34,729 nt of DNA from Flavobacteriales bacterium (lineage in GTDB: Bacteria; Bacteroidota; Bacteroidia; Flavobacteriales_D; Sanyastnellaceae): contig CANNHA010000012.1 of NCBI GenBank assembly GCA_947504275.1, positions 1 through 34,729 of the forward strand, in the 5' to 3' direction. Under the pieces are notes generated by a model. That model had not been told where the DNA came from. It saw only the letters and a program-made list of their open reading frames with translations, and searched no databases. How positions within the stretch are numbered: the first letter of the stretch is position 1; each line of letters begins with the position of its first letter. Shown here one piece after another: positions 11,017 to 32,188 of this stretch. A program made the position numbers and the translations under genes.

Positions 11017-11985
11017 TTATTGCATGTGGGGCTCTACAAAACGGCCCATATCGCAAAATTTCTCAATTCTGATGGCGGTTCTTTTTTCCGTTTCTAACTG
11101 AGACAATTCTTGAATGGCTTCTGTAATAACCGATTTCAAGATTTCTACAGCCTCCGTGTGATTGGCGTGAGCTCCACCTAAAGGTTCTCTGACAATTCCG
11201 TCAACCAATCCATTGTTATGCATGTCTTCAGCTGTCAATTTCAGGGCTTTAGCGGCTGTTATTTTATGATCCCAACTTCGCCATAAAATAGAGGAGCAAG
11301 ATTCTGGGGAAATAACGCTGTACCAAGTATTCTCCATCATCAATACTTTATCACCAATGCCAATTCCAAGGGCACCGCCAGAAGCTCCTTCACCAATGAT
11401 GATACAAATGACAGGAACTTTAAGACGCATCATTTCGAACAAATTGCGGGCAATGGCTTCTCCCTGCCCCCTTTCTTCCGCTTCCAATCCAGGAAATGCT
11501 CCTGGCGTATCAATTAATGTTACAATAGGCTTGTTGAACTTTTCAGCCAACTTCATCAAGCGCAAGGCTTTTCTATATCCTTCAGGATTGGCCATCCCGA
11601 AGTTTCGGTACTGACGCATCTTGGTATTCACACCCTTCTGCTGACCAATGAACATCACAGACTGACCATTCATAATGCCAAATCCACCTATCATTGCCTT
11701 GTCATCCTTAACCGTGCGATCACCATGCAGCTCAATCCAAGTACCTTCTGTCAGGGCTTCGATGTATTCTAAAGCGTATGGCCTATCTGGATGACGACTC
11801 AACTGCACGCGTTGCCATGGGTCAAGATTTTTGTAAATTTCAATAGTCTTCTCTTCCAGGGCTCTCTCCAATTCTTGAACAGCTGACTCGACATTGATTC
11901 CTGTCTTTACAGCACTATCTTTTAACTTTTGAATCTGTTCATTCAATTCCTTGATGGGTGATTCAAATTCCAAGTAATTTCTCAT
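11017..11985 (-). CDS. accA: Acetyl-CoA carboxylase carboxyltransferase subunit alpha
   Basis: The length of 322 residues is typical of AccA. An N-terminal helical region ([15 protein letters not shown]) precedes the carboxyltransferase core: [64 protein letters not shown] and [12 protein letters not shown]. It pairs with AccD in the second half-reaction of acetyl-CoA carboxylase. It begins 39 bases after rdgB on the same strand, so it may be read through from the men-rdgB run as well as from its own promoter; I see no convincing promoter in the gap. Confidence 0.97.
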
Positions 11986-12024: not shown

Positions 12025-12642
12025 TTAGCCTATACTTTTGATTTTAAGCAACAATTGATGCATTGCATTGGCTCGATGGGACAGCAAATTCTTTTCCACA
12101 TTGGACAGTTCTGCAAAAGTTCTTGAGCAGTCATTTGGAACAAAAACTGGATCGTACCCAAAACCATCCCACCCCATCGGGGTGCGTGTTATTTTTCCGT
12201 GAACATATCCATTGACTTCAAAGGGTTGCCCATTGTAGTAACCGACAAGTACCGTTAAAAAATGGGCCGATCTATTGCTATTTTTTGACATCTCCAGAAG
12301 TAACTTAGAAACATTATTTGCATGCGAAGTTGGCTCTCCTGCATACCTAGCAGAATGAATACCTGGAGCTCCGCGTAAAGCTTCTACACAAAGCCCTGAA
12401 TCATCGGCCAAAATGTTGCCATTCCACAATGATCTTAGAGCATTGGCCTTCAACCAAGCATTGCCTTCAAAAGTTAATTCCGTTTCCGGGATGTCAATTT
12501 CAATACCGGCCTCCTTCAAGCCAATGGCGTTTACACCCAATCCATTTGTTTTAAAAAACAACTTGATTTCATCAATCTTGTGTTGGTTGTTAGATGCTAT
12601 CAACCATTCCTTCCGGGTTGTATTTCCGGACAATTTTTCCAT
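12025..12642 (-). CDS. rdgB: Non-canonical purine NTP pyrophosphatase (RdgB/HAM1)
   Basis: The enzyme hydrolyses dITP, XTP and related damaged purine nucleotides to monophosphates, keeping them out of DNA and RNA. Family motifs are in order: ASNNQHKIDEI (substrate-binding SxNxxK), ADDSGLCVEAL, SARYAG, GWDGFGYDPVF and SHRANA. From the ATG at 12642 the product is 205 residues, close to the usual 190-200. The frame is open to 12708, but that would add 22 residues with no family counterpart, deep inside menE. A TTG at 12603 is another possible start. The chosen start overlaps menE by 53 bases. Confidence 0.93.
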   Translation of the reverse strand: MEKLSGNTTRKEWLIASNNQHKIDEIKLFFKTNGLGVNAIGLKEAGIEIDIPETELTFEGNAWLKANALRSLWNGNILADDSGLCVEALRGAPGIHSARYAGEPTSHANNVSKLLLEMSKNSNRSAHFLTVLVGYYNGQPFEVNGYVHGKITRTPMGWDGFGYDPVFVPNDCSRTFAELSNVEKNLLSHRANAMHQLLLKIKSIG

Positions 12643-13609
12643 TTTCATTTCTATCCATTTTTTGAACAAGGACGATTTTTCGGGGTCTCCAATTTGGGTG
12701 ATTTTCAAAAATTATTTTTAGATTCAAACTCTTCCATTCAAGAATATCTGATTTTAGAACCACCAGTGTTACAGCCTTTCCCCACTTATTATCTGGAGAT
12801 TGGGTAATATAGAAAGGTAAAGAAGTCCAATGCGCCAGCACTTCCTCCACCAATAAAGGATGAATTTTAAGCCCCCCGGAATTGATTACATCATCCAATC
12901 GGCCCAATACTTCAAACTCATTTTCTCCATAAAAATGCAAGGCGTCATTCAATGAAACTTGAATTTTTGTGACATTGTCATGAATTTCAATTCCATCCTG
13001 ATGCTCCATCACGCTCACGCCATCGAATAAACGAAAATGACTTGGGATTGGCATAATGGATCGGACAGCAATATGGGTTAAGGTCTCTGTCGCTCCATAA
13101 CTCTCGAAGCAATGGCCATTGAAATTAATCAATTGATTCCGGAGCTGGGTAGGCACCTTACCACCACCCAATAAAATTTTTTGAAAAACGTTGGGGTCTA
13201 ATTTGGCCTCGAGAAATGCGGCCAACATAGCAGGTGTTGTTGTCCACCAATCCCATTGAATATTCTCCGGATTCCATGGGAGATTAAAATGCATGGAAGG
13301 TTGTTCTACCCAGACGGAATGGCCCGCTACTAGTGCTCGAACGATGTTCATCTTGCCTGCTACAAATTGCATGGGGAGGCGATGCAACACTTTGGTTCCA
13401 GAACCAAGATGAAAAAAATCACAAGTTCTTTTTGCACTCGCGATTAATTGCGTTCTTGAAAAAATCAGTTGTTTTCTGACCCCAGAAGTGCCTGAAGTCT
13501 CGAATTGAAAATTTGACTTATTTGACAACCAGTCATCAACCCATAACTTTATTTCTGGGAAATGCTCAACAGCATCAAGGACATTACCATTTCGAATAAT
13601 TAATTCCAT
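12590..13609 (-). CDS. menE: o-Succinylbenzoate-CoA ligase (MenE-like, short form)
   Basis: This AMP-forming ligase of 339 residues joins CoA to o-succinylbenzoate in menaquinone synthesis. It shows the P-loop FETSGTSGVRKQLIFSR, the adenylation motif ESYGATETLTHIA, the hinge GRLDDVINSGGLKIHP and the C-terminal catalytic lysine region DRNENGKIVRKYN. It lacks about 100 N-terminal residues found in proteobacterial MenE; shortened MenE is common in Bacteroidota. The ATG at 13609 overlaps the menC stop by 10 bases. A longer in-frame start at 13639 would overlap menC by 40 bases. Genomic context makes the MenE assignment much firmer than sequence alone. Confidence 0.9.
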   Translation of the reverse strand: MELIIRNGNVLDAVEHFPEIKLWVDDWLSNKSNFQFETSGTSGVRKQLIFSRTQLIASAKRTCDFFHLGSGTKVLHRLPMQFVAGKMNIVRALVAGHSVWVEQPSMHFNLPWNPENIQWDWWTTTPAMLAAFLEAKLDPNVFQKILLGGGKVPTQLRNQLINFNGHCFESYGATETLTHIAVRSIMPIPSHFRLFDGVSVMEHQDGIEIHDNVTKIQVSLNDALHFYGENEFEVLGRLDDVINSGGLKIHPLLVEEVLAHWTSLPFYITQSPDNKWGKAVTLVVLKSDILEWKSLNLKIIFENHPNWRPRKIVLVQKMDRNENGKIVRKYNPEGMVDSI

Positions 13610-14658
13610 GGCTCCTTCCAATTTAAAGCGTTGTTCCACTCCATATATTCACCATTCAGCTGCAATGGACTCTCCCAATTGTTGGTGTATAAGTGGCCTG
13701 TTCCTAAACCTTGAGGCAATGCGTTATGAAATTGACCGAGCCAACGGTAGATGTGAGAAAGACCAACATTGCTTTCCAAAGCTGAAGTTGCCCACCATTG
13801 AATTCCTTTGTTTTCAGCTGCTTGAATCCATTGGATTGACCTATCCAAGCCTCCATGCAGCGATGGTTTTATTACCAAGTACTGTGGCTCGATCTCATTT
13901 ATTACATTTTCTATATTCATAAGCTCAACACCAATCAGTTCTTCATCGAGGGCTATGGGAATTGGGGAGTTCTTGCTCAATTCTCGCATGTCTTTCCACT
14001 GCTCGGTAGCTATTGGCTGTTCAACGGAGTGTATACTCCATTTACTTAATGCATCTAATTTGGTCATGGCTTCACTTGGCTTCCAAGCACCATTGGCATC
14101 CAAACGCAAAATGACATCAGAGCCGAATTGATTTCTCAATGAACGAATTAAACTCAGTTCATCTTCAAAATTGAGGGCGCCAACTTTTATTTTAATACAT
14201 CTAAAACCTTGTTTGTATTTCTCAATGGCTTCATGGTGCATGGACACCAAATCATTCATCCAAACCAATCCATTGATTAAACAATGTTGGGGAAATGGTT
14301 TTGGAAACAGATCCTGCCAGAGCATATCAATGGCGGCATGCAAGGAAGAAGGCCATTGATCTGCTTGAGAAAACTCCCCCCTTAACCACTCTTGAATGGC
14401 TGCTTCAATTTGATCCCAAGATTCTATAGAAAGTCCAATAATTGGTGCTATTTCACCCTTGGCCATGACATTACCCTGTTCATCATGCAGAAAAACATAA
14501 CAAACTCGGTGCTGTAGCATTGTATTTCTGGACGTCTTTGCCGGACGATGAAATACAAGATCCCAATGTTGGAAGGTTAGCTTGCTGAATTGTTCTTTAA
14601 AGAAACAGACTTTATCAACCACTCCAGTGGGGTATATTTGTTCACTTTCTTCTTCCAT
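13600..14658 (-). CDS. menC: o-Succinylbenzoate synthase
   Basis: This enolase-superfamily enzyme dehydrates SHCHC to o-succinylbenzoate. All expected catalytic residues can be seen (352-residue numbering): Lys156 and Lys158 in CIKIKVGA, metal ligands Asp187 (RLDANGAW), Glu213 (SVEQP) and Asp238 (ALDEEL), and Lys264 (VIKPS). The substrate-loop motif RPAKTSRN is near residue 38. The N-terminus is about 25 residues longer than usual and overlaps the upstream membrane-protein gene by 82 bases. The only ATG is at 14658; a GTG at 14622 is an alternative that still overlaps. Confidence 0.93.
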   Translation of the reverse strand: MEEESEQIYPTGVVDKVCFFKEQFSKLTFQHWDLVFHRPAKTSRNTMLQHRVCYVFLHDEQGNVMAKGEIAPIIGLSIESWDQIEAAIQEWLRGEFSQADQWPSSLHAAIDMLWQDLFPKPFPQHCLINGLVWMNDLVSMHHEAIEKYKQGFRCIKIKVGALNFEDELSLIRSLRNQFGSDVILRLDANGAWKPSEAMTKLDALSKWSIHSVEQPIATEQWKDMRELSKNSPIPIALDEELIGVELMNIENVINEIEPQYLVIKPSLHGGLDRSIQWIQAAENKGIQWWATSALESNVGLSHIYRWLGQFHNALPQGLGTGHLYTNNWESPLQLNGEYMEWNNALNWKEPWN

Positions 14659-15683
14659 AATTTAAGCAGGAACATCATTCCAATAAAAAGTATTGCCAGA
14701 GAAATCATCAAGGTAGCAGGAAAAGAAAATCCAATGATGATAGTGCCACTATGTGCAAATCCCATGATGAAAAGTGAGCAGAAAAAATAAAAGAAAAACA
14801 AGATTGAATACTTCTGATAACTTAAATCTTTGATTACGTCCAGGGTTCTTTCTGCGTGAATAAAGGTGAAAAAATGATTGACAAAATTGATTAACAACCA
14901 TGAGAATCCAATGATGAATAGCATGAAAGATGGTTGATAAACAAATTGATTAAATGGATAAAGAAACTTTGCACGGTACATGTCCATTTGAGGATAAAGC
15001 CCATCACAATAACGATTCACCATGAAACCTGCTACAATGATCATGATAGCTACCAATGAGGAAGGAGGAAAAAACCCTCGTGGCCTTAGGGCACCTTTTC
15101 CAACAGCCATACCGCTGAGAAATATGGCAACCCAAGGAAAAAAAGAATAGTAACCATTGAACAAAAGAAAGGCTGTTAGTTTGACCAATCCATCATTCTG
15201 GAAGTCGATACCAAAATATCTCAATCGGAAAGGAATATCAAAATTTATCAGCACCATGGAAACTAATATGATGGTCAATGACAATCCATGGAGCCACAAG
15301 CCATCTGTTTTTCTGAAAAAACCTGAAACAATAAAGGAAGCGCCGGCAATGATAAAAACATTCATACCCCAATTGAGAAAAATCAAACCAACTGCAAAAA
15401 GGATCAGGCCTTTCCGCATATTATTGGCTGAAGCTTTCTTTTGATTGATGAATTTGTTTCTCAATTGAATGGACGCTCCTACACCAAGAACAAAGAGGAA
15501 GACTCCGACTAACCAGTCAAAAAAAACGAAATAAACAGGTATCTGCATCCGCTTTGGATCAAGAAGCGCAGGAATACCCCCCACTGCAACGTAACCCAAA
15601 TACAGGGCTACTAGACTTGAAAAAATAAATTGAAGAAAGTTGACTCCGTAAAAATGAGCCGCCTTTTTTGAATTGTCTTTCAT
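14577..15683 (-). CDS. Multi-pass membrane protein, HGSNAT/DUF1624-like, within the men operon
   Basis: The protein has 368 residues and roughly ten membrane helices. The segment LFVLGVGASIQLRNK followed by MRKGLILFAVGLIFLNWG, and the later FFPWVAIFLSGMAVGKG, recall the heparan-alpha-glucosaminide acetyltransferase/DUF1624 group of membrane acyltransferase-like proteins. I do not see the catalytic His of characterised members, so activity is unproven. It starts 8 bases after the menA stop and its end overlaps menC by 82 bases, so it is made with the menaquinone enzymes. Its place is where menH might be expected, but it is not an alpha/beta hydrolase and cannot simply be MenH. Confidence 0.7.
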   Translation of the reverse strand: MKDNSKKAAHFYGVNFLQFIFSSLVALYLGYVAVGGIPALLDPKRMQIPVYFVFFDWLVGVFLFVLGVGASIQLRNKFINQKKASANNMRKGLILFAVGLIFLNWGMNVFIIAGASFIVSGFFRKTDGLWLHGLSLTIILVSMVLINFDIPFRLRYFGIDFQNDGLVKLTAFLLFNGYYSFFPWVAIFLSGMAVGKGALRPRGFFPPSSLVAIMIIVAGFMVNRYCDGLYPQMDMYRAKFLYPFNQFVYQPSFMLFIIGFSWLLINFVNHFFTFIHAERTLDVIKDLSYQKYSILFFFYFFCSLFIMGFAHSGTIIIGFSFPATLMISLAILFIGMMFLLKLWKKKVNKYTPLEWLIKSVSLKNNSAS

Positions 15684-15691
15684 ACGCTAGA

Positions 15692-16576
15692 TTACACCTT
15701 GGAAAGGATGAAGACGAAGATAGCATTAAAAAAAACAATCAAGGCCAATTTTTTTAGGAAGGGGTCCAATTTTGCCGGATCTTGAATTTTCCGGATGGAA
15801 AGAAAAAACGCCACTGGTATGATTAACAATGTGATACTGGCTTTGAATAAGGGAAACATAAATAAAATGAGTGAGCCGAAACCCAAAGCAAACAAAGCAC
15901 ATAAGTACCACTTGGATTTTCTCCAACCCAACCTCAGGGCCACAGTGATTTTACCTGCTTTGGCATCATCATCAATATCGCGCATATTGTTTAGATGCAG
16001 AACGCCAACAGACATGGTGCCCATAAAAATTGAAAGGAGAAAAGACTCCATATCTAGACCGTTGTACAATATGTAATGCATGCCAAGAACGCTCATCAAT
16101 CCAAAAAACACAAATACAGATAAATCTCCAAGGCCGATGTAACCATAAGGTTTAGGGCCTGCTGTATAGGCGTATGCTGCGATTATTCCAGACAAACCAA
16201 ATGAAAGGAAAATCCAAAAATCGATGTGTCGATTGTTCAGCCAAAGCGCTTGATACAGAAATAGAATTCCGCAAACCAAGGTGACCAAGGCCATGATGAA
16301 TACTCCCAATTTCATTTGATGAGCGGAAATACTTCCGGACTGAACCGCTCTTGATGGTCCTGCTAATCTAACCTGGTCTGCTCCGTTTTCAAAATCTCCT
16401 AAATCATTGGCCCAATTGGAAAGAATCTGCAGGAAAAAAGCGGTCAACAATCCCAACATCAAAGTCACAATATTCATTGAAACTTGACTATTGTGCGAGG
16501 CACCCAATAAAATTCCAGAAGCTGCCAACGGTAAGGTTCTTAACCTAGAGGCGGATATCCATGGCCCAATTTTCAT
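15692..16576 (-). CDS. menA: 1,4-dihydroxy-2-naphthoate polyprenyltransferase
   Basis: This UbiA-family membrane prenyltransferase (294 residues, 8-9 helices) attaches the isoprenoid chain to DHNA, giving demethylmenaquinone. The first Asp-rich motif is NWANDLGDFENGAD (about residues 54-67); the second is NNMRDIDDDAKAGK (about 197-210). The MenA-typical YTAGPKPYGYIGLGD loop lies between. The ATG at 16576 shares one base with the menB stop (TGATG), a tight coupling. Confidence 0.96.
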   Translation of the reverse strand: MKIGPWISASRLRTLPLAASGILLGASHNSQVSMNIVTLMLGLLTAFFLQILSNWANDLGDFENGADQVRLAGPSRAVQSGSISAHQMKLGVFIMALVTLVCGILFLYQALWLNNRHIDFWIFLSFGLSGIIAAYAYTAGPKPYGYIGLGDLSVFVFFGLMSVLGMHYILYNGLDMESFLLSIFMGTMSVGVLHLNNMRDIDDDAKAGKITVALRLGWRKSKWYLCALFALGFGSLILFMFPLFKASITLLIIPVAFFLSIRKIQDPAKLDPFLKKLALIVFFNAIFVFILSKV

Positions 16577-17391
16577 CAGGGAAACTTTGGGAATTGCTGG
16601 AAATCTGGATCTCGTTTTTCCAAGAAAGCCTTCTTCCCTTCTTGTGCTTCTTGTGTTAAATAATACAACAAGGTGGCATCACCTGCAAACTCCATCAAAC
16701 CGCGTTGACCGTCCAATTCTGCATTCAATCCTCGTTTGATCATTCTGATAGCCAAAGGACTACGTTTCATGATGGTCTTGCACCATTGAATGGTTGTATC
16801 TTCAAGATCTGACAATGGAACCACTTTGTTCACCATACCCATATCACAGGCCTCTTGGGCAGTGTATTGCTCACACAAAAACCAAATCTCTCTGGCTTTT
16901 TTCTGCCCCACATGACGGGCCAGATAATTGGAACCGAAGCCAGCGTCAAATGAACCCACCTTAGGACCAGTCTGTCCAAAACGCGCATTATCGGAAGCGA
17001 TGGTTAAATCGCAAACAACATGCAGTACATGACCTCCGCCAATAGCGTATCCATTGACCATTGCAATGACAGGCTTGGGGATCTCTCTGATTCTTTTGTG
17101 CAAGTCCAATACATTAAGGCGGGGAACACCATTGTCATCAACATAACCACCGACGCCTTTTACATTTTGATCGCCACCGCTACAAAATGCCTTTTCTCCA
17201 ATGCCTGTCAATACAATCACAGCAATGTCTTGACGCTCTCTGCAGATATCCATAGCATCAATCATGTCCACATTGGTTTGCGGGCGAAATGCGTTATACA
17301 CCTCAGGTCGATTAATGGTGATTTTTGCAATCCCATCATGCCATTCAAAAAGAATATCCGAATATTCTTTAATTGTTTTCCACTCTCTCAT
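16576..17391 (-). CDS. menB: 1,4-dihydroxy-2-naphthoyl-CoA synthase
   Basis: This crotonase-fold enzyme of 271 residues cyclises o-succinylbenzoyl-CoA to DHNA-CoA. It has the oxyanion-hole region [11 protein letters not shown], the [12 protein letters not shown] motif and [17 protein letters not shown]. The Gly in QTGP is the bicarbonate-dependent (type I) signature, as against Asp in type II. The C-terminal [12 protein letters not shown] is characteristic of MenB. I chose the ATG at 17391 (MREWKTI), which matches family N-termini; the frame is open to a TTG at 17412. It overlaps menD by 23 bases. Confidence 0.97.
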
Positions 17392-19039
17392 TTTGCTGCT
17401 TAAAGTATTCAAAGAACAAATCTAATTCAATTGGGTTCACTGCTGACGGAGTTTTCACCACCAAGACATCGTAATCATGGTTTCCAAAGAAATTTATTAA
17501 ATCTTCGCCATTGAGCTCTATGTACTCAACTGCTTTCAATCCCCATCCATTGACCCATTGAATCAGGTTTCTTTGGTGCGGGGTTTCAAAAAAACGAGGA
17601 ACGGATGGCTCATTTTTAGCACCTTCTATGATGTTAAATATCCCTCCTCCCCCATTGTCCACCACCACAATTTTCAAATTCTTTGGCCATGGCTGATGCC
17701 ATAAACCATTGGCATCGTATAGAAAGGACAAGTCACCAGTTACTAAAATAACTGGTTGATTGACAACGGATGCAGCACCTACTGCTGTGCTGGTGGAACC
17801 GTCTATTCCGCTTACTCCCCTATTCCCGAAAAACCGCAAATCGCGGCGCTGTTCAAACAATTGAATATAGCGTACGACAGAACTATTACCCATTTGAATC
17901 TGCGCTCCAGTTGGCCAAAATTGAGTGAGGTGGTAAAACAACTTCAAATCAGAAAATGGACGATGATTGAAAAATTCCGTGAGCTGATTCTCATTCGTCA
18001 TTGATGGCCTTTTAATACAACCATCTTCCGTTATCGTTTTCACATTCATCAACCAAAATTGAAGAAAATCGTGAATGGAGCAATGAAAGACAGATGGTTT
18101 CAAACGATACGTATCGATGGGATTGTTTTGCCATTGAATAGACCAATGCGCCTTGGCTTTGGTTCTGATCAACGCTTTGATTTTTCTTGATATGATGTTG
18201 TGTCCCAGAGATATCACAACATCCCAATGCAATGCATTGATCTGAGCTTCCGACAACGACATGATCCAACGATCTATGCAATCCACACCACCCAATGCAT
18301 GGGAGTTGCTATGGGTTTCAGTTAAAACAAGCACATTATCCAATTTTGCCAGCTTTTGAACCAAGGGAGCTAAGGAATCATCGGTGTTTTGTCCTAAGAG
18401 AATCAAGTGCTTCCAATCCTCACGAAACAAAGGAATAGAAGGGATTTCTATCCTTTGAGGAAGTTCCGATCGAATCTGGGTAAAAGGGTTCAAGGTTGAA
18501 GCTTCTTTGTATAGTGGTTCTTTGAAAGGCACATTGATGTGCACGGGACCATAGGGAAATTGAATGGCCTCATTCAAAGTTTTGGCCAACATCAAATGAT
18601 TAGCGTCAACTTCTAAATCGCCATTTGCCTCCTCTATTACACTGCACTGCGCCTTAACAAAATTGTTGTAGATGCCTTTCTGATTGATGCATTGACCTTC
18701 ACTTTGATTAATGCTTTCAGCTGGGCGATCAGCGGTGATGACCACCAACGGAATTTCTTGATAAAAAGCTTCTGCAATTGCAGGTGCATAATTCAATGGC
18801 GCAGTTCCTGAAGTACATACAAGAGCAACAGGCTTTTTTAATTGTTGTGCCATTCCCAAGGCAAAGAAAGCAGCGCTGCGCTCGTCCACTTTGACATGAA
18901 CCTTGTAATATGGATGACCGTCCAAACTGATTGCAAATGGTGCATTCCGAGAACCTGGTGAATAAACAATATGCTGTATTCCTCTTTCTTGAAGTAAAAA
19001 CAACAAAGATTGAACAACTGTTTTATTGGATATTCTCAT
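17369..19039 (-). CDS. menD: 2-succinyl-5-enolpyruvyl-6-hydroxy-3-cyclohexene-1-carboxylate synthase
   Basis: This thiamine-diphosphate enzyme of 556 residues condenses isochorismate with 2-oxoglutarate. It shows the MenD start [12 protein letters not shown], the SPGSRNAPF motif (27-35), the cofactor-activating Glu53 in [26 protein letters not shown], and the TPP/Mg region [13 protein letters not shown] with [13 protein letters not shown]. The ATG at 19039 overlaps menF by 17 bases. The product is the substrate for MenH, which is not present in this window. Confidence 0.97.
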
Positions 19040-19958
19040 CTAGGGCAAAGATAAATGCGTTCTGCTTCATCACTGTTTCATTCCACTCGATTTCCGCATC
19101 GCTGTCAGACATTACACCACCACCAACAAATCCCAACGCACTTTCCTCTTTAAGATGTAAACATCGAAGCAAGACAATGGCGTAGCTTTCCTCTTGATCA
19201 TGAACGTTGACAATTCCCCCATACAAACCTCTTTGGTATTGCTCGTTTTCAACAATCCATTTCATCACTGGTTGCACAGGCATTCCTGCCAAGGCAGGGG
19301 TTGGAGATAAAGCTTGCACCAATCTGTGTACATCGCCTTGCATCGAACCCGTAATTTTTGTTTGCAAATGCTTAACTGTCTTAAAATACAACTCGCTTTG
19401 AGGGTGAACGTTTATCTCATCAACACCATGATCACTCAAAGTGTTTACAATCATATCTCTAACTACCTCGTGCTCCGCAACCTCTTTTCTTCCCCAAGCA
19501 AGAAGAGAGTCAGCGGCAAGTGTCCCCGCCAAAGCCATAGTTTCTAATCGGGTTCCATTCTTTTTCAACAGCAACTCTGGGCTAGCAGCAATCCATCTTC
19601 CCCAAATAGGATGATTCACAATTACAAAAAAAGACTCAGGAAAACGAAGCCGCAATTGATGCACGTAACGCTCTAAATTCCAATCTTTCATCTGCCACTC
19701 AAAGCATCGACTAGTAACAATTTTTTTCCAATGATGGACTTGCATTGCAGATTTGGCTTTTTCGACCAATTTCAAATAATCTGCATGGTTTAAACATTCT
19801 CCACCTATTCTACCGGGATCAGCATTGGGATCAAAAGGTTGAACAAAATTGGAGTCGTCCCATGATCCTACTAGCACCTTACCCCCCATAGATTGCGGTA
19901 AAGTGATGTGGTATCCAAATGTAACACCTGAAATCAATGCAGCAATCTCAAAGCTCAT
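19023..19958 (-). CDS. menF: Isochorismate synthase
   Basis: This chorismate-binding enzyme of 311 residues makes isochorismate, the entry step of the pathway. It has WKKIVTSR (general-base lysine region, about residue 79), ALAGTL, EHEVVRDMI, the active-site LSPTPALAGMP and RGLYGGIVNV, and the C-terminal VGGGVMSDSDAEIEWNE. It is shorter than MenF/EntC of enterobacteria (about 390-430), with the loss in the N-terminal half, which carries little of the active site. The context with menD favours menF over a siderophore entC. The ATG overlaps the menI stop in an ATGA arrangement. Confidence 0.93.
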   Translation of the reverse strand: MSFEIAALISGVTFGYHITLPQSMGGKVLVGSWDDSNFVQPFDPNADPGRIGGECLNHADYLKLVEKAKSAMQVHHWKKIVTSRCFEWQMKDWNLERYVHQLRLRFPESFFVIVNHPIWGRWIAASPELLLKKNGTRLETMALAGTLAADSLLAWGRKEVAEHEVVRDMIVNTLSDHGVDEINVHPQSELYFKTVKHLQTKITGSMQGDVHRLVQALSPTPALAGMPVQPVMKWIVENEQYQRGLYGGIVNVHDQEESYAIVLLRCLHLKEESALGFVGGGVMSDSDAEIEWNETVMKQNAFIFALDENIQ

Positions 19959-20368
19959 TTGGCGACTTTAATCATGGTAGTCAACTTGGCTGTGGCAATC
20001 AATTCCTGCTCTTCATCGACAATTTGCACCGCCCAAACATGAAGACTACGACCAATTTTTATCGGAGTAGCAATGCCAGTGACCCAACCATGTCTTTTAG
20101 ACTTAAGGTGAGTGATGTTCAAATCAACACCCACTGCAATGCTGTTGTTTTCTTTGGCAATGAGATATGAACCCACACTAGCGACAGTCTCGGCCAATGC
20201 CGCGCTGGCTCCACCATGCAATATACCATAAGGCTGATGTGTGCGCGAATCAACGGGCATTTTGGCTGTGACCTTCTCTTTGGTCATCTCCAGCATCTCA
20301 ATACCCAAGGCGCCCAATAGCGTTGTGTTTTTCCAATTTTCTAGTTCCAGTTCCATCTTCGTATTCAT
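19955..20368 (-). CDS. menI: 1,4-dihydroxy-2-naphthoyl-CoA hydrolase (hotdog thioesterase)
   Basis: This 137-residue hotdog-fold protein releases CoA from DHNA-CoA before prenylation. AKMPVDSRTHQPYGILHGG followed by ASAALAETVASVGSYL is very close to E. coli YdiI/MenI; the catalytic Glu is the E of LAET. The PaaI/ComA group shares this fold, but its place as first gene of the men run supports MenI. I chose the ATG at 20368; the frame is open to a TTG at 20389 with no family support. GAAAGG precedes the ATG directly. A partial -7 box (TAAAATTG) lies just upstream. Confidence 0.85.
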   Translation of the reverse strand: MNTKMELELENWKNTTLLGALGIEMLEMTKEKVTAKMPVDSRTHQPYGILHGGASAALAETVASVGSYLIAKENNSIAVGVDLNITHLKSKRHGWVTGIATPIKIGRSLHVWAVQIVDEEQELIATAKLTTMIKVAK

Positions 20369-20411
20369 CCTTTCAACTTTAAAATGCAATTTTATTCTAA
20401 TTTAGCCAGCA

Positions 20412-28739: not shown

Positions 28740-28792
28740 AAATTAACCCCATTCAGCGTTAAAAGATTGAATGTGTGAATTACCTTGTGGGC

Positions 28793-31700
28793 ATGAAAAA
28801 AAATGTCCTGTTTTTTATTTTTGGATGCATCACCACTATCCTTAATGCCCAATCATCCATTGATTATTTGGGGCAAAACAATGGTGACCGAATTCGTTTT
28901 CAAATGTCCAATTTCAATTGGATAGCCGGAGAAGGAAATGATCAACGTCTTCAGTGCAAAGATTTGACACCTCTATTGGAATTGGGAAGTCCAGAGGTTC
29001 TTTATGCCACCACGTCCATCATCATTGATAACCAGCACGCGACACAAATCATTGTGGATCATGCTTCGTTTTATGAATTGGACAATATTCAACTTGCTGC
29101 CTCCAAAGGGAATCTTTCACGCTCTATCGATCCGTCAACCATAGCGGCGCAACATGGAGAAGCCTATCAAAATGATGCTTTTTTCCCCGGCACATTGGCC
29201 AAAGGAAGTAGTCCATATATCTTTGGTGATTTCCGAGGCCAAAACATTCATTTTTATCCTTTCCAGTACAATCCGACAACCCAAAAATTAAGGGTATACA
29301 CAGAGATTGAAATCGTTGTTGTTTCAACAGAACAGGTTGGCGAAAATCCTTTCAACACGTCAAGGAATCAAACCAATTCATTGAGGAAAGAATTGTATCA
29401 AAAGCAGTTTTTAAATTACGATATCCATGGCGATCGTTATGATATCATTGATGAAATTGGAAATATGCTCGTAATTACCCATAACAGTTATATGAGCGCT
29501 CTTCAGCCATGGGTTCAATGGAAGATTGAGAAAGGCATTGATGTGCGTGTGGTTGATGTAGCAGAAGTCCCTACTGTTGCGGCAATGGACAATTACATTG
29601 CCAACTATTACAACTCAGGTGGAAATGATTTTACCTATTTGGTTTTGGTGGGTGATGAAGATCAGGTTCCATCAGAATTGGTCACCAACCCCAGTGGAAC
29701 GGGTTATTGTGACAATTGCTTTGGATATATTTCAGGCAACGATCACTACCCTGAAATTTTTGTTGGTCGCTTGTTGGTACATAACACAACCGAGCTCAAT
29801 GGCGTTGTTTCAAAAATCATGGAGTATGAAAAATATCCCAACACGGATACGGATTGGTTCTCAACAGCAATGGGTATTGGTTCCGATGAGGGTGCCGGTA
29901 TAGGAGATGACAACCAAGCCGATTGGCAGCATCAAAATGGTTTAAAACAGGATCTTTTGGACTTTACTTATGACTTGGTTTATGAAAAATACGATGGCAA
30001 TCACACTGCCAATAGCCCTTCAGGGGGCGTTACAGCAGACGGAGCTGGAAATGCCACAGCTGCTGAATTAACCAATGTCATCAATGGAGGTTGCAGCTTA
30101 ATCAACTACACAGGTCATGGTGACCATAGTTTGATTGTAACAGGAAGTTATACCAATGCGCAAATTAATCAGTTGAGCAATTACCACAAGTTTCCTTACT
30201 TCATTATTGTAGGATGTTGCGTGGGAGACTTTGATGATGATAGCGGCACCGGAGACACCTTTGGCGAAGCTTGGTTGAAAAGTCCCAATCCTACAACGCC
30301 AACTGGAGGTATAGGCGGAGCTTTCAGTACCGTTTTTCAAAGTTGGGCTCCCCCAATGGAAGGACAAGATGAGATGAACGCTGTTATTGCGGAAATCTCA
30401 GGAACTGTTACCACTACACGTCACACCTTTGGAAGCATTCACGTGCACGGCTGTGCTGGAATGAATGACGTTTATGGCGGAGATGGTGAAGATATGACAG
30501 ATACTTGGATATTGATGGGTGACCCATCCATTCAATTGCGCACAGATTTCCCAACACAAATTGAGGCCCAACATGCAGCTACCCTGTTCTTGGGAATGAC
30601 ATCATTTACCGTGAATAGCGTTTCAGAAAATGCTCTGGTATCCCTTACCATTGGCAACGGAATACTGGCTACTGGATTTATCCAAGGTGGAACATGCACG
30701 CTAAATTTCGCCTCCATCAACAACCCTGGAACCATGTTGGTCACATTGACCAATTTTAACACGATTCCTTATCAACAGACAGTAGATATCATCCCTGCCG
30801 CAGGTCCATATGTTGTATTGAATAACCACATCAATCAAGACGCAAACGGCATCAACACCAATAATGGCGCTGTTGATTATGCTGAGCAAATAACCGTTGA
30901 TATCAATTTGAGCAATGTCGGTATTGAGGTTTCGGGTAATGTCACCATTACATTGACTTGTGACAATTCAAACATTACCATCACAGACAATACCGCCAAT
31001 ACCATCGCCATTGGTGTGAATCAAAACATTAACATCAACAATGCATTTTCGTATTTAGTTAGCGGAAACATCGCTGACCAAACAGTGGTCAATTTCACCA
31101 TCACCATTACAGATGATGCAGGAAACAGCTGGACCAGTAATTATTCGGAAGTGATTAATGCTCCCGTTTTAAGCTGTGGCAGTTTTGTCATTGAGGACAA
31201 TGGAAATGGCGATGGATATTTGCAAACAGGAGAAACAGCAACCATTTCATACACCATCCTCAACACAGGACATGCTGCGAGCAATACTGGTAATTTCTCA
31301 ATCAGTGACAACAGCAACAGCACAAGTCTCACAACAGAAAATGCCAACATGTCAAGCATTACTGTTGATGGTACCTATTTATTCAGCACAGTTGTTTCTG
31401 TTAACGGAACAGCTGGGATTACAGAGAATGTTACATTCAATTTTTCGGCTATCAGTGGGCTTTTAGGGGTTGATTGTTCTGCCAACACCATTATCAATCA
31501 AATCATCGAAACATGGGAGTCTGGAAATGATCAAACTTTCAATTGGCAATACGAAGGCAATGCCGATTGGTTTGTATCGACTAATTCCCCATACGCAGGC
31601 ACATATTGCATGGAAAGTGGCAACATCAATAATAGCCAAGGCACTACTTTGATGTTGGTCTCTGATTTTACCACTGCAGGTCTAGTGAGCTTCATGTATA

Positions 31701-32188
31701 GAACAAGTACGGAGGGTTCATATGACTTTTTGACTTTTCAAGTGGATAATACAGACATCACCAGTTGGAGTGGGGAAAATGCTTGGAGTAATTATTCCTA
31801 CAATGCATCCGCTGGCAACCACACCTTGCGTTGGATTTATGAAAAGGACAACATTGTATCATCTGGAAGCGACGCTTGTTGGGTAGACAATATTATTCTT
31901 CCTCCAAGCCAAACCACTTTTATTTTCGAAGAAAATTCAAACGATGCTGATATGAAGTTGTACCCCAATCCAACTATCGGGAATTGCATTATTGAGTGGA
32001 AAAGTATGGGACAATCACAAATTCGTGTCATTGACATTCAAGGCAGAACAGCTACCATGATTTACAGCAATGAACAGTTTGGTCTGACAAGAACAGAGAT
32101 CCCCACAGAGACATTGGCTCCTGGAACATATTGGATTGAAATCATCAATGACTACAAAGTATCGCGCAAAAAACTCATTGTCCAATAG
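28793..32188 (+). CDS. Gingipain-like C25 peptidase with T9SS type A sorting domain
   Basis: The 1131-residue protein starts with a signal peptide ending near NAQ (about residue 20). Residues about 20-200 look like a gingipain-type prodomain and adjoining segment. The C25 caspase-like domain spans about 220-590: VITHNSYMSALQPWVQWK, LVLVGDEDQVPS, the catalytic His442 in NYTGHGDHS, Cys475 (with Cys476 beside it) in VGCCVGDF, and ILMGDPSIQLRT at its end. Then come several Ig-like/CARDB-like beta domains (about 590-895), a MAM-like jelly-roll (about 905-1038), and a C-terminal sorting domain with LYPNP (1056-1060) and GTYWIEI. It is probably exported by T9SS and attached to or released from the surface. 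I chose the ATG at 28793; the frame also opens at a GTG, 28775. Confidence 0.92.
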   Translation: MKKNVLFFIFGCITTILNAQSSIDYLGQNNGDRIRFQMSNFNWIAGEGNDQRLQCKDLTPLLELGSPEVLYATTSIIIDNQHATQIIVDHASFYELDNIQLAASKGNLSRSIDPSTIAAQHGEAYQNDAFFPGTLAKGSSPYIFGDFRGQNIHFYPFQYNPTTQKLRVYTEIEIVVVSTEQVGENPFNTSRNQTNSLRKELYQKQFLNYDIHGDRYDIIDEIGNMLVITHNSYMSALQPWVQWKIEKGIDVRVVDVAEVPTVAAMDNYIANYYNSGGNDFTYLVLVGDEDQVPSELVTNPSGTGYCDNCFGYISGNDHYPEIFVGRLLVHNTTELNGVVSKIMEYEKYPNTDTDWFSTAMGIGSDEGAGIGDDNQADWQHQNGLKQDLLDFTYDLVYEKYDGNHTANSPSGGVTADGAGNATAAELTNVINGGCSLINYTGHGDHSLIVTGSYTNAQINQLSNYHKFPYFIIVGCCVGDFDDDSGTGDTFGEAWLKSPNPTTPTGGIGGAFSTVFQSWAPPMEGQDEMNAVIAEISGTVTTTRHTFGSIHVHGCAGMNDVYGGDGEDMTDTWILMGDPSIQLRTDFPTQIEAQHAATLFLGMTSFTVNSVSENALVSLTIGNGILATGFIQGGTCTLNFASINNPGTMLVTLTNFNTIPYQQTVDIIPAAGPYVVLNNHINQDANGINTNNGAVDYAEQITVDINLSNVGIEVSGNVTITLTCDNSNITITDNTANTIAIGVNQNININNAFSYLVSGNIADQTVVNFTITITDDAGNSWTSNYSEVINAPVLSCGSFVIEDNGNGDGYLQTGETATISYTILNTGHAASNTGNFSISDNSNSTSLTTENANMSSITVDGTYLFSTVVSVNGTAGITENVTFNFSAISGLLGVDCSANTIINQIIETWESGNDQTFNWQYEGNADWFVSTNSPYAGTYCMESGNINNSQGTTLMLVSDFTTAGLVSFMYRTSTEGSYDFLTFQVDNTDITSWSGENAWSNYSYNASAGNHTLRWIYEKDNIVSSGSDACWVDNIILPPSQTTFIFEENSNDADMKLYPNPTIGNCIIEWKSMGQSQIRVIDIQGRTATMIYSNEQFGLTRTEIPTETLAPGTYWIEIINDYKVSRKKLIVQ

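Follow-up and report, generated by a model that had tools for sequence, protein, structure and literature searches.

The window, that is the whole stretch of 34,729 nucleotides of contig CANNHA010000012.1 (Flavobacteriales bacterium, assembly GCA_947504275.1) that we analysed, carries a menaquinone operon whose genes all lie on one strand in the order thioesterase-menF-menD-menB-menA-[men-linked gene]-menC-menE-rdgB-accA (Table 1). The gene between menA and menC, here called the men-linked gene, is a real open reading frame in the ORF list of the window and encodes a membrane protein. The first-pass annotation had found no MenH among the men genes here, and indeed neither menH nor menG is present in the window cluster. 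The MenE of the window is short (349 aa) and falls far under the curated MenE cut-offs despite its location in a men operon. Elsewhere in the window (28775-32188, + strand) we observed a gingipain-type Peptidase C25 that carries a Por secretion sorting tail as well as a propeptide.

Table 1. Features of the menaquinone operon and the adjoining conserved block, in positions of the window.
Feature	Position	Strand	Basis
Hotdog thioesterase, candidate DHNA-CoA hydrolase (MenI-like)	19955..20389	-	TIGR00369 passes its cut-off; MenI models fall short of theirs
menF-like isochorismate synthase	19023..19958	-	Chorismate-binding passes its cut-off; TIGR00543 falls short
menD	17369..19039	-	TIGR00173 over cut-off
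menB	16576..17412	-	TIGR01929 over cut-off
menA (DHNA polyprenyltransferase)	15692..16576	-	TIGR00751 over cut-off; 8 nt upstream of men-linked gene
Men-linked DUF418/HGSNAT-like (TmAT-fold) membrane protein gene	14577..15683	-	ATG start, 368 aa; ORF, homology, motifs, selection
Overlap of men-linked gene with menC, from likely menC start (GTG 14622-14620) to men-linked gene stop	14577..14622	-	Start comparison across loci
menC (o-succinylbenzoate synthase), longest frame; likely start 14622	13600..14658	-	TIGR01927 over cut-off
menE-like ligase, short form	12590..13639	-	AMP-binding passes its cut-off; TIGR01923, the best NCBIfam model, falls short
rdgB/HAM1 nucleotide pyrophosphatase, in conserved block	12025..12708	-	Family models
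accA, in conserved block	11017..11985	-	Family models

The men-linked protein had been called HGSNAT/DUF1624-like from its sequence, and this holds through its relatives only. Taken alone, the window protein had no match at E ≤ 1 among the Pfam and NCBIfam models; among 15 relatives, counting the window protein, five matched HGSNAT_cat (PF07786, best 1.6e-8) and four matched the DUF418 model (PF04235, best 6.3e-11). In a scan of 20 genomes, the men-linked proteins of five of the 13 carriers (G011, G025, G007, G013 and G001) passed the Pfam gathering cut-off of HGSNAT_cat (22 bits), one of them, with 23.5 bits, from the window's own genus. When we compared 15 men-linked proteins with 10 DUF418/HGSNAT proteins by hhalign, we obtained a probability of 99.8% (E 1e-29) over 345 columns. 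MenA, the membrane-protein control, also crosses the membrane several times and belongs to this operon, but it showed no homology to the men-linked profile (0.3%). Since relatives pass the HGSNAT_cat cut-off and the profile comparison is decisive, the HGSNAT/DUF418-type family call holds, and the full-length profile homology argues for fold-level membership in the transmembrane acyl transferase (TmAT) superfamily. The homology is to DUF418-type (YeiB family) proteins of the same class, with which the men-linked proteins also share a C-terminal W-x-K ... P-x-E end. They differ from human HGSNAT, in spite of the matches to its catalytic domain model, in having neither the TM1 Arg nor a conserved His in the TM1-TM2 loop, and the window protein itself stays below detection.

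The ten membrane passes proposed earlier are plausible, if short of proof: the hydropathy profile of the window protein has eight peaks, one of which is 56 residues long and must contain more than one helix, and the full-length homology is to a 10-TM fold. An AlphaFold model built from three sequences (window, L021 and L022) had a confidence too low for use (pLDDT 38.5, pTM 0.21). Sequence searches against solved structures gave no match, to HGSNAT or otherwise, for the men-linked profile and none for the HGSNAT paralogue of the window's own genome; a mixed profile gave only two cytochrome-oxidase matches, which we judged to be chance, and a PHROGs search returned two weak matches, both of unknown function. 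The paralogue (C22:14731-15417), an HGSNAT_cat protein of the ordinary kind, retains the D-x-x-R of TM1 and is located on a different contig from the men genes.

Within one Flavobacteriales family, where a menC match was found in 102 of 114 genomes, the men-linked gene is carried by at least 39 of the 114 genomes and by 13 of 21 genera. In 38 of the 39 carriers menC follows it immediately on the same strand, with a gap of -37 to +9 nt; the 39th (G003) has a contig edge on the menC side and menA and menB on the other. The position between menA and menC is thus stable, and this is not a one-genome case. These counts derive from 46 match rows, eight of which have no adjacent menC, namely G003, four pieces of contig-split genes in genomes already counted as adjacent, and three other weak matches (one in G074, two in G079). 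An apparent co-loss of the gene with the pathway in G006 and G020, where menC is not matched, was rejected and put down to assembly gaps, since in both genomes menD is located at the end of a contig; because of such gaps, the count of 39 carriers is a lower bound. In 12 loci from seven genera (L085-L095 and L098) the men-linked gene is absent and menC comes straight after menA. The flanking order menF-menD-(menB)-menA-menC-menE-rdgB-accA-ompA is otherwise equal in carriers and non-carriers as far as the loci reach, and menB is missing from the examined stretch in several loci of both kinds. A scattered men pathway has been described in Pontibacter (PMC4511580).

Outside this family the linkage was not seen. 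A sample of the order gave a match in 40 of 249 genomes, five of them outside the carrier family, and those five loci (8-9 kb) had no tblastn match to the men-block proteins of the window. A sample of the class gave a match in 17 of 296 genomes, 14 of them outside the family; five of these 14 have no menC match, and in the remaining ones no relative adjoins menC among the menC matches listed (for G407 the match is weak and its position is not given). Among the matches listed in both samples, no DUF418-type outgroup locus was found in a men operon, and the men-linked form was seen in a single Flavobacteriales family, so that the association is real but narrow.

The first-pass annotation had reported an overlap of 82 bases with menC. 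This figure is right for the longest menC frame, which extends to 14658, but not for the likely start, a GTG at 14622-14620 that spans the E354-W355 codons and leaves an overlap of 46 nt. A candidate menC start occurs at the same place, 37-46 nt before the stop of the men-linked gene, in 12 of the 17 loci examined: it is an ATG with a 46 nt overlap in G001, from the same genus, and an ATG with a 40 nt overlap in seven loci. The other five loci have a later menC start and are more divergent or do not have that codon. Since the likely start spans the Glu-Trp codons, the conservation of W355 may in part be imposed by menC.

In a tree of MenA and MenC, carriers are spread across the family, while the non-carriers form one clade (g3, g4, g9, g10, g13 and g14; support 100) plus g18, and the tree of the men-linked gene contains the same large groups. 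A single early gain followed by at least two losses would be the simplest history, and a largely vertical inheritance is supported by the agreement of the trees on large groups, with an uncertain root since several deep nodes are weak (support 27-56). Because the block is syntenic across the family together with the unrelated rdgB, accA and ompA, the conserved position is probably the outcome of one ancestral event and not of 13 independent ones. It was claimed at the outset that the coupling to menC is too tight to be accidental; the position is indeed stable, but a one-family association that sits in such a syntenic block does not by itself prove a role with quinones.

The dN/dS of the men-linked gene between the window and L021 and L022 was 0.020 and 0.024, and that of the other men genes ranged from 0.005 (menB) to 0.16 (menC) in the same comparison, all rough values since dS (about 1.5) is near saturation. 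Among the men genes MenB alone has a lower value than the men-linked gene, while those of MenA, MenC, MenD, MenE, MenF and the thioesterase are all higher, and accA and the ompA-like gene gave 0.02-0.03; rdgB was left out because of a misaligned start (pN 0.70). The men-linked gene is under strong purifying selection and is evidently functional. Across genera, its protein is less conserved than MenA and MenC: men-linked proteins from other genera are 18-30% identical to that of the window, against about 37-45% for MenA and MenC.

The conserved residues of the TmAT superfamily line the acyl-CoA site, and the Arg of the TM1 DxxR motif is essential in HGSNAT, OafB and OacB, according to PMC12423673. 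We compared these positions in the men-linked set (36 distinct proteins minus six that do not exceed 300 aa, giving n = 30; these are not independent and correspond, at 70% identity, to about 18 effective sequences) and in an outgroup of 11 proteins that the men-linked profile matched beyond that set, an outgroup that is small and not a neutral sample. The outgroup, of DUF418 type, has D-x-x-R-x10-N in TM1 and the TM9 Tyr in 11/11 each. In contrast, the TM1 Arg is found in none of the 30 men-linked proteins, the TM1 Asn in seven (all from one genus) and the TM9 Tyr in 11, whereas the Asp of DxxR is present in 18. The window protein has N15 and Q18 instead of the Asp and Arg, L29 instead of the Asn and L295 instead of the Tyr. 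Other features of a working acyltransferase are retained: FxxxxG in TM2 (F62 in 25/30 and G67 in 28/30, both present in the window protein), the Arg/Lys of TM3 (29/30, R in 20 and K in 9; K91 in the window), an exchange treated as conservative in the same source, and the Gly of TM6 (G191, 30/30).

The men-linked proteins also have a polar set of their own. Lys291 occurs in 29/30 of them and in 0/11 of the outgroup, Asp56 in 26/30 against 0/11, and Asn108 in 28/30 against 0/11 (the outgroup has Asp there in 11/11); all three are present in the window protein, and Tyr292, found in 26/30, is absent from the outgroup. From the charge pattern and homology, Lys291 would lie at the cytosolic base of TM9, and Asp56 and Asn108 at the outer ends of TM2-TM3. 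A His in the TM1-TM2 loop (column 48) occurs in 44% by weight of the men-linked set and is absent from the window genus; this His and Asp56 may correspond to the dyad residues of human HGSNAT. A His-Asp dyad (PMC11199644) and an acetyl-CoA site (PMC11357348) have been described. Men-linked proteins that lack the DxxR Arg and yet share Lys291 and Asp56 are newly described here, and among the open-access papers listed in our searches we found none that connects menaquinone genes with proteins of the DUF418, DUF1624 or HGSNAT type.

One could imagine that the men-linked protein replaces MenH, a soluble alpha/beta hydrolase, or another missing enzyme of the pathway. Not one of 20 genomes (13 with and seven without the men-linked gene) has a MenH over the TIGR03695 cut-off, which 3 of 14 control genomes pass, and so far this would suit a replacement. 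However, MenH is equally missing in the seven genomes without the gene, which indicates that the gene does not stand in for it; moreover, weak matches to the MenH model exist in 16 of the 20 genomes, and a strong match to the UbiE/MenG family is present in all 20, although this broad model does not prove MenG since it is also positive in 14 of 14 controls. Together with the soluble nature of MenH, this makes a replacement highly improbable. The window's genome has two such strong UbiE/MenG-family matches (C36:915-1610, E 3e-66, and C55:14298-14993, 4e-64), the other 19 having one each of that strength, and the pair may reflect a duplication or an assembly effect.

Among the functions first suggested, the acylation of an unrelated envelope molecule is disfavoured, since the TM1 Arg, essential in three studied members of the superfamily, is gone in 30/30. 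A broader version, in which the protein remains a transmembrane acyltransferase but its donor site has been remodelled, appears unlikely to us without being negligible. Lys291 and the TM3 Arg/Lys would then hold the CoA diphosphate, Asp56 would be the acid of an HGSNAT-type dyad, and the acceptor would be periplasmic or a lipid, perhaps linked to quinones. Departures from the motif do occur in working enzymes, GWT1 being an acyltransferase although it has neither the DxxR Asp nor the catalytic His (PMC12423673). Acyl-CoA could still be bound by the men-linked proteins, since the TM3 Arg/Lys, the TM2 Phe and Gly and the TM6 Gly are kept and Lys291 could replace the lost Arg; strong purifying selection and a Lys291 and Asp56 common to the subfamily and absent from the outgroup fit such an enzyme as well. 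It would nevertheless have to work without the TM1 Arg in all 30 proteins, without the TM1 Asn in 23 and without the TM9 Tyr in 19, the window protein included, and with a loop His present in under half of the set by weight.

We give a similarly low rank to the idea that the gene is a passenger whose function is unrelated to quinones and which is kept in place by the conserved block and by the menC start in its end. The company of rdgB, accA and ompA speaks for it, as does the likely menC start inside the gene in most loci, which would hinder separation. However, the overlap need not lock the gene in, since in two lineages that lack it menC comes straight after menA, and selection on the gene is stronger than on most men genes. 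Neither the absence in two lineages nor the strong selection shows a quinone function.

The reading we favour, with confidence a little below even, is that the men-linked protein is a repurposed TmAT-fold protein of the men operon, with a putative service to the membrane stage of menaquinone synthesis. A DUF418/HGSNAT-type protein would have entered the operon early in one Flavobacteriales family, keeping the body of the fold while losing the TM1 Arg and, in most members, the TM1 Asn and TM9 Tyr of the acyl-CoA site, and bearing instead Asp56, Asn108 and Lys291; we infer that it is no longer an ordinary acyl-CoA-dependent acyltransferase. A channel re-tuned to another ligand would fit, because the CoA-contacting Arg is lost while Lys291, Asp56 and Asn108 are common to the subfamily, and a compound of the pathway is the most economical guess for this ligand given the location in the operon. 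Made together with MenA and MenC, the protein might then serve the membrane stage, the old acyl-CoA channel perhaps holding or passing a hydrophobic or anionic compound such as DHNA, demethylmenaquinone or a polyprenyl diphosphate. Its role would be that of an optional improver and not of an essential enzyme, since the two lineages (seven genera) without the gene keep menA beside menC. The earlier suggestion that the protein modifies or transports a quinone or organises a quinone step is thus favoured, though in reduced form. More specifically, and more tentatively, the protein could be an undescribed accessory of menaquinone biosynthesis that works with MenA, its TmAT fold devoid of acyl-CoA chemistry and its trans-membrane substrate channel now serving either a polyprenyl diphosphate or a precursor of the quinone.

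The TmAT superfamily has been described through its acyl-CoA site, and a subfamily without DxxR under strong selection would represent this fold doing something else. That such a subfamily is found, in one bacterial family, only beside menaquinone genes suggests that the membrane stage of vitamin K2 synthesis may involve a partner not yet recognised. A copy of the men-linked protein 94% identical to that of the window occurs in a public MAG deposited as 'Chryseobacterium gleum' (L022), a label that is perhaps erroneous, given that another MAG, designated simply Flavobacteriales, carries this block too. In genus g14, which does not carry the men-linked gene, the menC and menE matches fall in a single ORF (L091:4018-6120, + strand, 700 aa; L092:2069-4057, - strand, 662 aa), and for L091 a domain check confirmed enolase-C as well as AMP-binding in this ORF.
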